Assembly: GCA_903857255.1 (NCBI GenBank)
Contig: CAIODY010000113.1
Coordinates: forward strand, 1-40,843
From: an uncultured bacterium
Lineage (GTDB): Bacteria; Bacteroidota; Bacteroidia; Chitinophagales; CAIODY01
Reading direction: 5' to 3'
Length of the DNA stretch: 40,843 nucleotides
Of this stretch, positions 13,552 through 17,663 are shown piece by piece. The first letter of the stretch is position 1. Each line of letters begins with the position of its first letter. The notes beneath the pieces were generated by a model that was not told the DNA's origin, made no database searches, and saw nothing but the letters and a program-made list of their open reading frames with translations. Both the position numbers and the translations under genes were made by a program.

Positions 13552-14511
13552 TTATGAAGTTTGCTTTTGAAGTAGACTAGCAATGTTCTTTTTCTCCAGT
13601 CTAAAAGTGTGAAGGTTGCAAAGTAAATATTTTCTTTCTTCCCATAAGCCATGAAAATGATTACATGAACTACAATCTAAATCAATGTTAGCATAATATT
13701 TATCCTTGTATTTTCTTTTGTTTAGTTTACAATTATGAACCTCAAAAACAGGATAGTGATTGTCTGTAATTCTTTTCACAATTTCTTTATAGTTTTGTTT
13801 GTACCAAATTTTTCTATCGAAATCAACTTTGATGGTAAGTTGTTTTTGAGCTTCTTCAAAAGATTTTTTATTGTATAGCCACTTTTTGTTTTCGGTTTCT
13901 TCTACAAGAATTCTTTTCAATTCTTCAAAATTAAAATCATTTTGAACTGAACTCAAATCTATCTCAATGGCAGAAATATCAGAATCAATAATATCCTTTA
14001 TTTTCTTTCTTCCTACAAAATGTGTAACTGCAATTTCAACGATTAGCCTCTTTTCTTTTCCTGTATTTTTATCAAGAGAAAATACAACAACATCAGGGAT
14101 ATATTTGTGTAATCGTTTTTCTAAAATAACCCGGTCAATATTTATTTTCTTACATGGTGAAATTTCTCTAAAAAAACCATGGGAAATAAATTGCCCATCA
14201 ATCAATTCAATTCCTGTGGGAATAAATATTTTTACTTCAGGAATTGTTATTTCTTTCGTTAACTCAAATACTTTTTTTGCAGCTAAATGAATTGCTGTCT
14301 GAAAACCGTATTTGCATTCTTTATTCTCAAAATGATGGAATGTCTTTAATCTATTGCTACTGCCTCCATTATGTGCAACTAATTCCTTCTTACAAGCAGG
14401 ACAAATACAATCACATTTTTTGCCATTAACGGCATCTAAAATATGAATTAACTCACCATCTTTTAATCCATGAAACAGATGACGATTGTGATTTGTCTGC
14501 TCATTTATCAT
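13552..14511 (-). CDS. CoiA-like nuclease protein with zinc-finger-like ends
   Basis: 319 aa. The N-terminus has a Cys-rich element (CDCICPACKKELVAH ... FHHFENKEC) of the type seen in competence protein CoiA and its relatives. It is followed by a PD-(D/E)XK-like core: IPDVVVF, then after a short loop IVEIAVTH with the Glu-x-Ala variant. A C-terminal CSSC plus a further CNLH may form a second metal site. CoiA is needed for DNA uptake in some firmicutes; here a general DNA-processing or defence role is possible. The start at ATG 14511 is used although TTG 14517 is in frame. It follows kmo by 16 bases and precedes the Gre-like gene. Confidence 0.65.
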   Translation of the reverse strand: MINEQTNHNRHLFHGLKDGELIHILDAVNGKKCDCICPACKKELVAHNGGSSNRLKTFHHFENKECKYGFQTAIHLAAKKVFELTKEITIPEVKIFIPTGIELIDGQFISHGFFREISPCKKINIDRVILEKRLHKYIPDVVVFSLDKNTGKEKRLIVEIAVTHFVGRKKIKDIIDSDISAIEIDLSSVQNDFNFEELKRILVEETENKKWLYNKKSFEEAQKQLTIKVDFDRKIWYKQNYKEIVKRITDNHYPVFEVHNCKLNKRKYKDKYYANIDLDCSSCNHFHGLWEERKYLLCNLHTFRLEKKNIASLLQKQTS

Positions 14512-14527
14512 GTTCAAAAATATAATT

Positions 14528-15871
14528 TTACCTCACCAATTCCCTCACCACACTTTGCACTTCATCTGAATTCCACTTCTCAAAAACATTTTCGATGTTG
14601 GCTAATTTATCTAAATGAACGCCATGTCTTTGTCCTTCATTATATGCAGTATGGTAGCTGATTTGCGGACTGAATGTTACTTGTGCATACATGCTTAAAA
14701 AGTTAGGATGCTCAGTTGCAATTCGGGCTTCAATTTTTTTGCGTAACAAAAATTTCGGGTCAGCAGTTTTGTCTCTCATCTCAATGAAATTATCCAAAGC
14801 CAACTGCGCCACCGCATCACCATTCGGTTTGCGAAGCGTTTGATATTCTTCAAACAATGCTTTCCAATTGTCGCCATGCTTTTCCATCATTTCATCAAAC
14901 ACCACACAGTCTTCAAACCCACAGTTCATGCCTTGTCCGAAGAACGGCACAATCGCATGTGCAGCATCGCCCACCAAACAAGCTTTGTCTTCAAAGCTCC
15001 AAGGAAAGCAGCGAACAGTTACTAAAGTGGATGTTGGATTGTTGAAAAAATCATGTTGCAAAGTGGGCATTAATTCAATGGCATCAGCAAAATAGTTGCG
15101 CATGAAATTCATTTGTGAAGCCTCATCCTTCAAGGTTTCAAAAGATTCTTCGCCTTTTAATTGCAAGAACAAAGTGCAAGTAAAACTGCCATCAATATTA
15201 GGCAATGCAATCATCATAAAACTTTTTCGTGGCCAGATGTGCAACGCATTTTTCTCCATTCTGAAACTACCATCAGCATTTGCAGGAATCACCAACTCTT
15301 TGTAAGCATGTTCCAGATAAGTTTGTGAGTAATTAAACATATCGGTTGAAGTCTGCAATGCCAATCGCACTGGGCTAAATGCGCCATCCGTTCCTAAAAC
15401 AATATCCGATTGAATGGTTGAATTTTCACCCGTTTTTTCATCATGAAATTTTGCTGTTGCTTTTCGCAAATCAACATCGGTGCAGCGTTGGTCGAATTTT
15501 ATTTTTACATTTTCAAATTTTTCAGCCAGACTCATCAATGCCATATTAATACCACCACGACTCACAGAATAAATCGCCTGATTTTCTTTTCCATAAGGTT
15601 GAAAAGTTTGTGTTCCGTCCTGATGATGAATTTGTCTGCCATACATCGGGATGGCAATTTGCATGATGTCATCGTCTATGCCAGCGGCTTTCAAGCCTCT
15701 GATGCCTCTGTCACTCAATGCTAAATTGATACTTCGTCCGGCAGAAATTTTTGTAGAACGCATATCTGGTCGGCGTTCGAACATGGTAACATTGTGACCA
15801 CGTTTTGCTAAATAAACAGACAACAGGCTACCAACAAGCCCTGAACCAACTATTGAGATATTTTTTTTCAT
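14528..15871 (-). CDS. kmo: kynurenine 3-monooxygenase
   Basis: 447 aa FAD-dependent hydroxylase converting L-kynurenine to 3-hydroxykynurenine with NADPH and O2. Visible features are the FAD motif GSGLVGS near the N-terminus, the family's ERRPDMR segment with NLALSDRG, and the second FAD motif GDAAHAIVPFFGQGMNCGFEDC. I chose ATG 15871 because MKKNISIVGSG is the typical beginning; an in-frame non-ATG extension to 15892 would run into the repeat. Kynureninase lies upstream on the same strand, separated only by the GxxExxY cassette. The edge of the cassette is 14 bases from this start, so its expression may depend on read-through from kynU or on the repeat. Confidence 0.94.
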   Translation of the reverse strand: MKKNISIVGSGLVGSLLSVYLAKRGHNVTMFERRPDMRSTKISAGRSINLALSDRGIRGLKAAGIDDDIMQIAIPMYGRQIHHQDGTQTFQPYGKENQAIYSVSRGGINMALMSLAEKFENVKIKFDQRCTDVDLRKATAKFHDEKTGENSTIQSDIVLGTDGAFSPVRLALQTSTDMFNYSQTYLEHAYKELVIPANADGSFRMEKNALHIWPRKSFMMIALPNIDGSFTCTLFLQLKGEESFETLKDEASQMNFMRNYFADAIELMPTLQHDFFNNPTSTLVTVRCFPWSFEDKACLVGDAAHAIVPFFGQGMNCGFEDCVVFDEMMEKHGDNWKALFEEYQTLRKPNGDAVAQLALDNFIEMRDKTADPKFLLRKKIEARIATEHPNFLSMYAQVTFSPQISYHTAYNEGQRHGVHLDKLANIENVFEKWNSDEVQSVVRELVR

Positions 15872-15885
15872 TTTTATTTTGTTTG

Positions 15886-15972
15886 ATAGCACAGAGATTG
15901 AAAAGATGAAAAAAGATTTTATAGGATTTAATCCGTTGTAATCTTTTTAATCATAAAAAATCCGTGTGCTAT
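15886..15972. repeat. cassette-edge repeat, kmo side, with inverted ends
   Basis: The stretch begins ATAGCACA (15886-15893) and ends TGTGCTAT (15965-15972), its exact reverse complement, with further imperfect pairing inside. Bases 15949-15972 match the repeat on the kynU side of the GxxExxY gene. Confidence 0.75.
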
Positions 15973-16364
15973 TTTTTATTTATTTTTTTGAATTCGTTGT
16001 CAAATATTTTTCTTTTGAATTGGGGTGTTTTTCCGAAATTCAATAATAATCCAACTTCTAATTCTGTTGCTTTTAAATAATTGATGAGTTGCAATTCATG
16101 CTCTTCAACTAATCCCTCTGCGGCTTTCAGCTCAATGATAACTAAATCATTTACTAAAATATCAGCAAAGTATTTTCCAATTTCAATATTGTCATACACC
16201 ACTTTTATTGGTGCTTGTTGCACAGGATTTAATCCCAATTTTTTCAATTCAATCATCATTGCATTCTCATAAACTTTTTCTAAAAATCCAAAACCTAATT
16301 TATTAAACACGTTGTAATACGCTTTAATTATTAAGTCAGTAATTTCAGAATGCTTTGTATTCAT
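15969..16364 (-). CDS. GxxExxY family protein (PD-(D/E)XK-like), cassette-borne
   Basis: 131 aa. The diagnostic GxxExxY motif is present as GFLEKVYENAM, followed by FADILVNDLVIIELKAAE, which fits a PD-(D/E)XK nuclease-like core (Asp then Glu-x-Lys), and a helix with LQLINYLKAT. The family is common in Bacteroidota; its function is unknown. The start is ATG 16364 (MNTKHSEITD); an in-frame TTG at 16373 would begin inside the repeat. The stop TAG is supplied by the flanking repeat, and the ATG lies only eight bases from the other copy. The tight fit suggests that gene and repeats form one unit inserted between kynU and kmo. Confidence 0.85.
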   Translation of the reverse strand: MNTKHSEITDLIIKAYYNVFNKLGFGFLEKVYENAMMIELKKLGLNPVQQAPIKVVYDNIEIGKYFADILVNDLVIIELKAAEGLVEEHELQLINYLKATELEVGLLLNFGKTPQFKRKIFDNEFKKINKK

Positions 16365-16371
16365 CTTAATC

Positions 16372-16405
16372 AATCATAAAAAATCTGTTCAAATCCGTGT
16401 GCTAT
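16372..16405. repeat. cassette-edge repeat, kynU side
   Basis: AATCATAAAAAAT is followed by ATCCGTGTGCTAT, with an extra CTGTTCAA-type insertion between them relative to the copy at 15949-15972. The two copies are in the same orientation on either side of the GxxExxY gene. This copy ends four bases before the kynU stop codon. Confidence 0.75.
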
Positions 16406-16409
16406 CTTC

Positions 16410-17663
16410 TTAAAATAAATTTACAAACTGCCAAACATCTTCAAACGAATTATACAAAGGCACTGGCGCAACACGAATTACACCTGGCTCTCTCCAATCG
16501 GCTATCACACCTGCTTTGGTGAGTTTATCAAAAATTTGTTTTCCATTTTCTTTAAATGACAAACTGATTTGGCAACCACGTTCCTTTTCATTAGATGGTG
16601 TTAAAATATCGAACTGTAAATTTTTCTCTTTTCTTTTTTCAATCAATAAATATTCTAAGAAAGCTGTAAGCTGCAAACTTTTCTTACGCATGTTGTCAAT
16701 GCCAGCTTCGTCGATAATTTCCAAAGAAGCTTTATGAATTGCCATTGCAAATACAGGCGCATTGCTCATTTGCCAAGCTTCGGCGGTGTGCATACTTTCA
16801 AATTTATTTTCCATTTTGAAGCGAACACTTTCGTTGTGTCCCCACCAACCGTTGAATCGTGGAAGTGCATCATTGTTGTGATGTTTTTCATGCACAAAAA
16901 TTCCAGCTACACCACCCGGACCGCTATTCAAATATTTATAACTGCACCAACAAGCGAAGTCAACATTCCAATCATGCAATTGCATCGGTATGTTTCCCAT
17001 TGCATGCGCTAAGTCAAAACCACAATTTGCACCAGCGTTGTGAGCCGCTTCAGTAATGGTTTTCATGTCGAATAACTGACCTGTATAAAAATGAACGCCG
17101 CCAAAAATCACCAATGCTAATTCATTTTTGTGTTCTTCAATTTTTGCTAAAATATCTTCTGTACGCAAAGTATGTTCACCATCACGAGCTTGCATTTCAA
17201 TAATTGCATCATCACTAAAACCATGAAATTTTGCTTGAGAAGTAACAGCATATTGGTCGCTTGGGAACGGACGATTTTCAATCAGGATTTTATAACGCTC
17301 TTTTGTCGGGCGATAAAATGAAACCATCAACAAATGCAAATTGTTAGTGAGCGAACCCATTGCCACTACTTCATTTTTGTTGACACCTACTAATTTTGCC
17401 AAAGCATCTTGTGTGAAGTGATGATAATACAACCAAGGATTTTTTCCGTGCAAATGCCCTTCCACACCGAGTTTTGCCCAATCATCCAATTCCACATCAA
17501 TATGCTCCATTGCCGATTTGGGTTGCAAGCCTAAAGAATTTCCGCATAGATAAATGGAATCTTTACCATTCACTTTCGGTATAAAAAATCTGTCACGAAA
17601 ATGTGAAAGTGAATCTTGTTTATCTAATTGTTGAGCAAAAGCCAACGAGTTTTCGAATTGCAT
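16410..17663 (-). CDS. kynU: kynureninase
   Basis: 417 aa PLP-dependent hydrolase that cleaves kynurenine or 3-hydroxykynurenine to (3-hydroxy)anthranilate and alanine. Family marks are YLCGNSLGLQPK near the N-terminus, DLAHAMGN with the PLP-ring Asp, the PLP lysine in CSYKYLNSGPGG, and FNGWWGH. I chose ATG 17663 (MQFENSLAF); an in-frame TTG at 17687 is less likely. A CAAAAGTA sequence at 17685-17692 reads as a TAnnTTTG -7 box on this strand. With kmo it forms the tryptophan-derived kynurenine branch; no dioxygenase or later NAD-pathway gene is in the window. Confidence 0.95.
   Translation of the reverse strand: MQFENSLAFAQQLDKQDSLSHFRDRFFIPKVNGKDSIYLCGNSLGLQPKSAMEHIDVELDDWAKLGVEGHLHGKNPWLYYHHFTQDALAKLVGVNKNEVVAMGSLTNNLHLLMVSFYRPTKERYKILIENRPFPSDQYAVTSQAKFHGFSDDAIIEMQARDGEHTLRTEDILAKIEEHKNELALVIFGGVHFYTGQLFDMKTITEAAHNAGANCGFDLAHAMGNIPMQLHDWNVDFACWCSYKYLNSGPGGVAGIFVHEKHHNNDALPRFNGWWGHNESVRFKMENKFESMHTAEAWQMSNAPVFAMAIHKASLEIIDEAGIDNMRKKSLQLTAFLEYLLIEKRKEKNLQFDILTPSNEKERGCQISLSFKENGKQIFDKLTKAGVIADWREPGVIRVAPVPLYNSFEDVWQFVNLF

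Follow-up and report, generated by a model that had tools for sequence, protein, structure and literature searches.

In a 40,843-nucleotide contig of an uncultured member of the Chitinophagales (the window, meaning the whole stretch of DNA analysed), a small gene of the GxxExxY family and its repeats lie between kynU and kmo and leave both genes open. This locus raises the questions of whether such a unit is mobile, and what its protein has to do with the repeats around it.

The unit between kynU and kmo

On the minus strand the order is kynU, 4 nt, an upstream arm, the GxxExxY ORF, a complete palindrome, 14 nt and kmo (Table 1). The identity of kmo as kynurenine 3-monooxygenase is based on its position beside kynU, and the pair is adjacent in other genera too. 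The 13-mer ATCCGTGTGCTAT occurs in the window solely at 15960-15972 and 16393-16405. Its upstream copy ends at 16405, 4 nt (16406-16409) from the kynU TAA, the ORF stops at a TAG within ATAGCACAC, and the outer downstream end at 15886 lies 14 nt from the kmo ATG. A sequence-only reading of this DNA had given the same boundaries, the repeat-derived stop codon and both spacings, all of which hold on re-reading, and the extra inverted end that it had reported was confirmed at 15886-15893.

Table 1. Coordinates of the features at the kynU-kmo locus
Feature	Position	Strand	Remarks
kynU (kynureninase), upstream neighbour	16410..17663	-	TIGR01814, 475.8 bits; stop codon TAA at 16410-16412
Upstream arm of the cassette, ATAGCACACGGATTTGAACAGATTTTTTATGATTGATTAAG in gene direction	16365..16405	-	Inverted repeat of the palindrome's distal end (downstream)
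GxxExxY / PD-(D/E)XK nuclease-like ORF, 134 aa	15969..16373	-	Starts at TTG 16373 or ATG 16364; TIGR04256, PF13366
Downstream palindrome	15886..15972	.	Sequence and fold; proximal end gives the TAG of the ORF; distal end ATAGCACAGAGATT forms the outer, inverted terminus of the cassette
Extra inverted end ATAGCACA	15886..15893	+	Minus strand carries GTG (from 15892) in frame with kmo
kmo, downstream neighbour	14528..15871	-	ATG at 15871; PF01494, 90.4 bits (FAD-binding monooxygenase by family)

The same reading had placed the gene between same-orientation repeats. Both 13-mer copies are indeed present, but a full palindrome, with a predicted fold of -24 kcal/mol, has the downstream copy as its gene-proximal end, and the outer ends of the unit are therefore inverted (ATAGCACACGGATTTGAACAGAT versus ATAGCACAGAGATTGAAAAGAT). 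As judged from these sequences, the whole unit is an upstream half-arm, the gene and the palindrome, not a gene simply lying between direct repeats, and the direct 13-mer copies are a by-product of the inverted-arm boundary. The arms contain the word CACNGAT in arrays with ATAGCAC as a cap, and the outer arms close the predicted fold of the transcript (z=-4.9). The GxxExxY gene has no evident promoter of its own and is probably transcribed from the host operon. Immediately downstream of kmo (13552-14517, minus strand) there is a 321-aa ORF with several cysteine pairs and without a Pfam match.

Protein clades and repeat words

The window ORF belongs to the GxxExxY family, scoring 130.5 bits with TIGR04256 (cut-off 35) and 137.4 bits with PF13366, PDDEXK_3 (cut-off 22), and members above the cut-offs were found in 37 of 60 relatives. 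In 26 diverse members including that of the window, G22, G24, E27, Y30, D67, E77, K79, Q91, N108 and F109 (L046 numbering) are invariant. Among these, D67, E77, K79 and Q91, together with the fold in a model of member L046, correspond to the catalytic D...ExK and the core of the PD-(D/E)XK superfamily. The structure nearest to the L046 model (pLDDT 96) is SSO0001, a Cas4 protein (VIA Z 9.8, 99 residues, 3.0 A), and LHK-Exo, lambda exonuclease and Hjc resolvase follow at lower ranks; no solved structure matched by sequence. The predicted product looks like a minimal Cas4/lambda-exonuclease-like PD-(D/E)XK nuclease. It shares the core fold, the D, the ExK and the QxxxY pattern with that branch (SSO0001, LHK-Exo), but differs in being about 125 aa long and tied to inverted word arrays. 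Changes in GxxExxY genes are mostly synonymous (dN/dS about 0.02 to 0.17), indicating purifying selection and a product that is used.

Membership of a known defence family was rejected, PADLOC giving only a weak resemblance to Cas4. Rfam returned solely a sub-threshold RT-3 match on the locus, over its coding part, and just two papers of the open-access literature searched use the family name. At L325 and L364 (G083:C9 and G109:C1; also G215:C17), a RecQ-like helicase carries GxxExxY as an in-frame N-terminal fusion, in frames of 883-896 aa beside carB. Another genome, G243, has the neighbour pair of these fused loci, yet its GxxExxY is unfused; recent identical paralogues in this genome were considered and rejected, as two ends of one assembly overlap there (2185 identical bases).

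Flank alignment of 65 GxxExxY loci of relatives revealed inverted arms in 68%, compared with 3% of neighbouring control ORFs, when arms were called above the 95th percentile of mismatched flank pairs; clear arms were not seen at about a third of the loci. Inverted arms likewise mark a further 77 loci, taken from named genomes of several phyla, and mismatched pairs also score high in this set because the clade shares one word. In the largest clade, the two arms of an element are more alike than arms taken from different elements (Wilcoxon p=1e-14, n=92). Each arm is an array of 7-nt words with a spacing mode of 9 (8-11) and a next spacing of 19-22, and in the largest clade 451 words point inward versus 156. 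Where an upstream frame runs into a recognisable cap, its stop lies within -9 to +12 nt of the cap in 19 of 22 cases. Between co-directional genes the cassette runs with them by 86:16, and by 74:6 in tight gaps, as counted by simple ORF calling on loci that are not independent.

The similarity of arm 7-mers tracks protein identity (Mantel r=0.27). Among proteins less than 70% identical, r is 0.18 (p=0.001), against -0.02 for control flanks 700-880 nt away. CRCNRAG is present at least twice at 83 of 92 genes of the largest clade and at 3 of 66 of the rest, and the hosts of this clade are, per sequence records, Bacteroidota, Planctomycetota, Cyanobacteria, Chloroflexi, Acidobacteria, Verrucomicrobia and proteobacteria. 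For the window subfamily, which was sampled anew (28 usable loci) with its word CRCNGAT fixed beforehand, the word appears at least twice at 23 of the 28 loci versus 9 of 125 in other clades, and at 0 of 27 loci when the search is moved 600 nt further out. A cap-plus-word pattern, partly shaped on those same loci, is found upstream in 19/28 and downstream in 19/28 of them, against at most 1/135 in other clades. CACATAG marks another clade (6/12 versus 0/119), CRCNAAT a further one (4/5 versus 1/126), and a fifth clade has a TTGTCTGAA cap; P-values of these clade-word tests ignore kinship among loci.

Three GxxExxY clades, each with its own word, coexist in the genome of the window, and host composition therefore cannot explain the pairing. 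On this evidence the repeat word follows the protein clade, not the host. The suggestion of the sequence-only reading that the repeat may be the substrate of the nuclease-like protein gains indirect support from this agreement in distant hosts. Since gene and arms travel together, part of the match may be plain linkage. Linkage alone could give the two a common history, but noncoding words would not stay recognisable over such protein divergence without constraint. Viral spread was also considered and rejected, because the viral contigs scanned with the A2 clade yielded a single relative (L356, an IMG/VR contig), whose arms are of the CACAAAG/CACGAAG type.

Occupied, gene-less and empty sites

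In both other genomes of the genus kynU and kmo are adjacent (93-94% and 90-91% protein identity), and the gaps of the three congeners contain three different cassettes. The gap of G002 holds a GxxExxY gene only 64% identical to that of the window, inside a different inverted repeat (GGAACGCAGATGACGCAGATTTTTATGATT ... AATCATAACAATCAGCGTCATCAGCGTTC). That of G001 is without GxxExxY; AGTCGTAAGTC-type arrays there enclose a four-helix-bundle gene, which scores 111.8 bits with TIGR02436 and 116.3 bits with PF05635 and codes for the 23S rRNA intervening-sequence protein. In this genome (L018 2780-3215), the kmo start codon is located in the repeat and overlaps the four-helix-bundle stop (ATGA), and about 16 repeat-encoded residues are added to kmo. 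The synonymous divergence between the genome of the window and G002 is 1.66 for GxxExxY, 0.39 for kynU and 0.74 for kmo, and vertical descent of the two GxxExxY genes in place is disfavoured by the first value, which comes from a short gene with saturated dS. These values suggest that GxxExxY in this gap was replaced rather than inherited in place. An empty kynU-kmo site, which the earlier reading had proposed to look for in close relatives, was not found in clean form among the congeners, all three gaps being occupied; nor is the gap content the same in all relatives, the outcome that would have spoken against insertion. The gap is often just about 14-140 nt in other genera where the two genes are adjacent, and in the three other genomes of the same family kmo does not lie beside kynU.

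The genome of the window has another GxxExxY cassette inside carB, with arms of the CACAAAG type (L249, G000:C86:8600-17000; 10177-13534 of contig C86). Both congeners read straight across this site, and the full 940-aa frame is seen in G001. In the split gene, the cassette follows an N-terminal frame of 548 aa and precedes a C-terminal one, for which a GTG in the right arm can serve as start. Both frames are open and match the intact protein at 98% and 99% identity, and the genome of the window yielded no further carB copy.

Five cassettes of another genus have empty or gene-less counterparts in congeners. Three genomes lack the L051 cassette and have 4-24 nt separating the aligned flanks; L046 is missing from two congeners and L099 from at least one. 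The counterparts of L080 are a half-arm remnant, a gene-less palindrome of the same word and a YhcG nuclease gene, and that of L081 is a gene-less palindrome with the same word. In a congener, a Fic gene stands at a sixth cassette site (L090). By alignment, gene-bearing, gene-less, remnant and empty states alternate at orthologous sites. Since sites with a GxxExxY cassette in one species can hold a YhcG nuclease or Fic gene in a congener (L319 and L323), different inserts visit the same gene boundaries repeatedly. With respect to classical insertion sequences and MITEs, inverted arms are present, and no convincing target-site duplication was seen at carB and several other junctions, where the flanks have diverged.

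In the 2.97-Mb genome there are 10 exact copies of the 13-mer and none of its reversed control, indicating that the repeat is not due to chance. Most of the remaining copies terminate palindromes of about 75-90 bp that carry no gene, one of which lies between apparent grpE and dnaJ genes (neighbours recognised by eye). Counted by pattern only, gene-less palindromes outnumber gene-bearing ones in this genome. Several of them are common to congeners, indicating that movement is not frequent. The relation between resident gene and palindrome type is a weak trend only (exact ATAGCACACNGAT 13/6/7 and GGAACGCWGAT 3/5/6 in the genome of the window, G002 and G001, respectively). At one orthologous site (L252/L141/L143; G000:C53, G001:C7, G002:C237) there is a ATAGCACACGGAT palindrome in the genome of the window and a GGAACGCTGAT palindrome in both congeners, the same switch of word as at kynU-kmo. 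We found no description of these repeats in the open-access literature, most subscription journals lying outside the search. The genome search for repeats with and without a GxxExxY gene, as the sequence-only reading had proposed, thus returned gene-less copies elsewhere, and its idea of a mobile or formerly mobile unit slipping between genes gains support from them, from the three cassettes in one gap and from the empty sites at other loci.

Possible explanations of the cassette

The arms, the clade-specific words, purifying selection, operon co-orientation, polymorphic insertions and gene-less palindromes can all be read directly from the sequences. Because the repeat words belong to protein clades and the units come and go between continuous genes, GxxExxY looks like the enzyme of an undescribed small mobile element. 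We thus favour, with reasonable but limited confidence, a small mobile cassette whose nuclease recognises its own arms, and we infer arm recognition, cleavage and movement by GxxExxY. The nuclease would bind the word arrays at both ends, probably as several protomers along one DNA face, and would cut DNA at or near the arms. Break repair, rejoining or hairpin copying could then move or copy the cassette. Acting in trans, the nuclease would carry along palindromes that have lost the gene, and host genes would survive because the unit goes in at their boundaries and brings stop codons in its caps and start codons at its far arm. It counts against this proposal that no element is known to be moved by a lone enzyme of the PD-(D/E)XK fold, that no target-site duplication was seen, that clear arms were missing from about a third of the loci and that many palindromes are common to congeners.

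The main rival, which we consider rather unlikely as a full account, is an RNA-level element resembling an intervening sequence, in which the arms form a stem in the operon transcript that is cut by RNase III or by the encoded protein, and the insert is removed or insulated, the target being an RNA structure. The model is the Coxiella 23S intervening sequence, an ORF within inverted repeats that is cut by RNase III (PMC4990558). Intervening sequences with an S23/four-helix-bundle ORF (PF05635, TIGR02436; PMC4990558) resemble our cassettes in carrying a small ORF of about 120 codons in terminal inverted repeats closing a hairpin and in their sporadic distribution, and their protein family itself occupies the kynU-kmo gap of G001 in its own arms. 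The strong co-orientation with operons in tight gaps and the predicted closing of the transcript fold by the outer arms also fit, but co-orientation is equally expected if the gene needs a host promoter. In contrast to intervening sequences, the protein is different and has a DNA-nuclease fold, and the sites lie between or inside protein genes. An E. coli 23S probe found nothing in the fetched GxxExxY loci, and the word sequence is kept with the protein clade beyond what pairing needs. In favour of the RNA-level explanation, four-helix-bundle genes outside rRNA (TIGR02436 loci, L326-L355) have the same architecture, about 68% of 28 loci showing inverted arrays of 9-10-nt words on the two sides; their arm words vary from locus to locus. 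A role of the arms in RNA may also coexist with a mobile cassette.

It is less probable still that the GxxExxY genes are passive cargo of REP- or MITE-like palindromes spread by another enzyme, with the clade-word match reflecting linkage. The excess of gene-less over gene-bearing palindromes would agree with this, as would the unrelated genes (four-helix bundle, YhcG, Fic) in the same kind of site, but the words remain recognisable between proteins below 70% identity from different phyla, where linkage without selection would not keep them, each of several word types in a genome has its own protein clade, and the nuclease gene is under purifying selection. A close known parallel is the RAYT, a REP-associated tyrosine transposase paired with REP doublets, or REPINs (PMC3116915, PMC3686654). 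In both systems an enzyme gene is paired with short palindromic repeats of a class that matches the enzyme lineage, one genome can hold several such classes, and repeat copies without a gene occur. They differ in that GxxExxY is a PD-(D/E)XK nuclease-like protein (TIGR04256/PF13366), not a Y1 (HUH) tyrosine transposase, and lies inside inverted arms made of arrays of 7-nt words about 9-10 nt apart, and in that the repeats seen here number around ten copies, not hundreds. Since the enzyme is unrelated to RAYTs, we do not class the element as REPIN/RAYT despite the similar logic.

A free-standing homing endonuclease, which would cut a neighbouring host gene at a conserved sequence and spread by repair from its own locus, with the arms as expression or insulation signals, is very improbable: a homing-like lifestyle would explain the intergenic location, the co-orientation and the splitting of carB into two intact parts, like that of nrdA into functional parts by phage Aeh1 mobE (PMC2988022), but not the repeats, as such enzymes have not been described with arms that are conserved and clade-specific or with arm copies lacking the gene, flanking genes vary by locus within one clade among the loci read, and the viral scan gave just one relative. 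T-even phage enzymes of this kind (seg, mob; PMC2988022) are alike in being promoterless nuclease genes between or inside host genes, co-read with them and able to split a gene into two coding parts, and unlike in that GxxExxY is chromosomal, phylum-wide and set in cognate repeats that also exist without a gene.

Returning to the mobile cassette, we tentatively raise a wider possibility, which we hold somewhat less probable than not, that these units form an undescribed, phylum-crossing mobile class. In such a class, a minimal Cas4-like nuclease would read a clade-specific word code of about one word per helical turn in its own inverted arms, would move the unit and gene-less copies between genes, and could split essential genes into working parts, and four-helix-bundle intervening-sequence proteins would be a parallel class of the same architecture. 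The common insertion sites tie 23S intervening-sequence proteins to ordinary operons, and in carB a central metabolic gene is cut in two by a cassette with both parts kept. For GxxExxY/PDDEXK_3, an abundant orphan family, the clade-word match gives a directly testable substrate candidate, explains the word-array repeats of many genomes and supplies a natural range of nuclease specificities.
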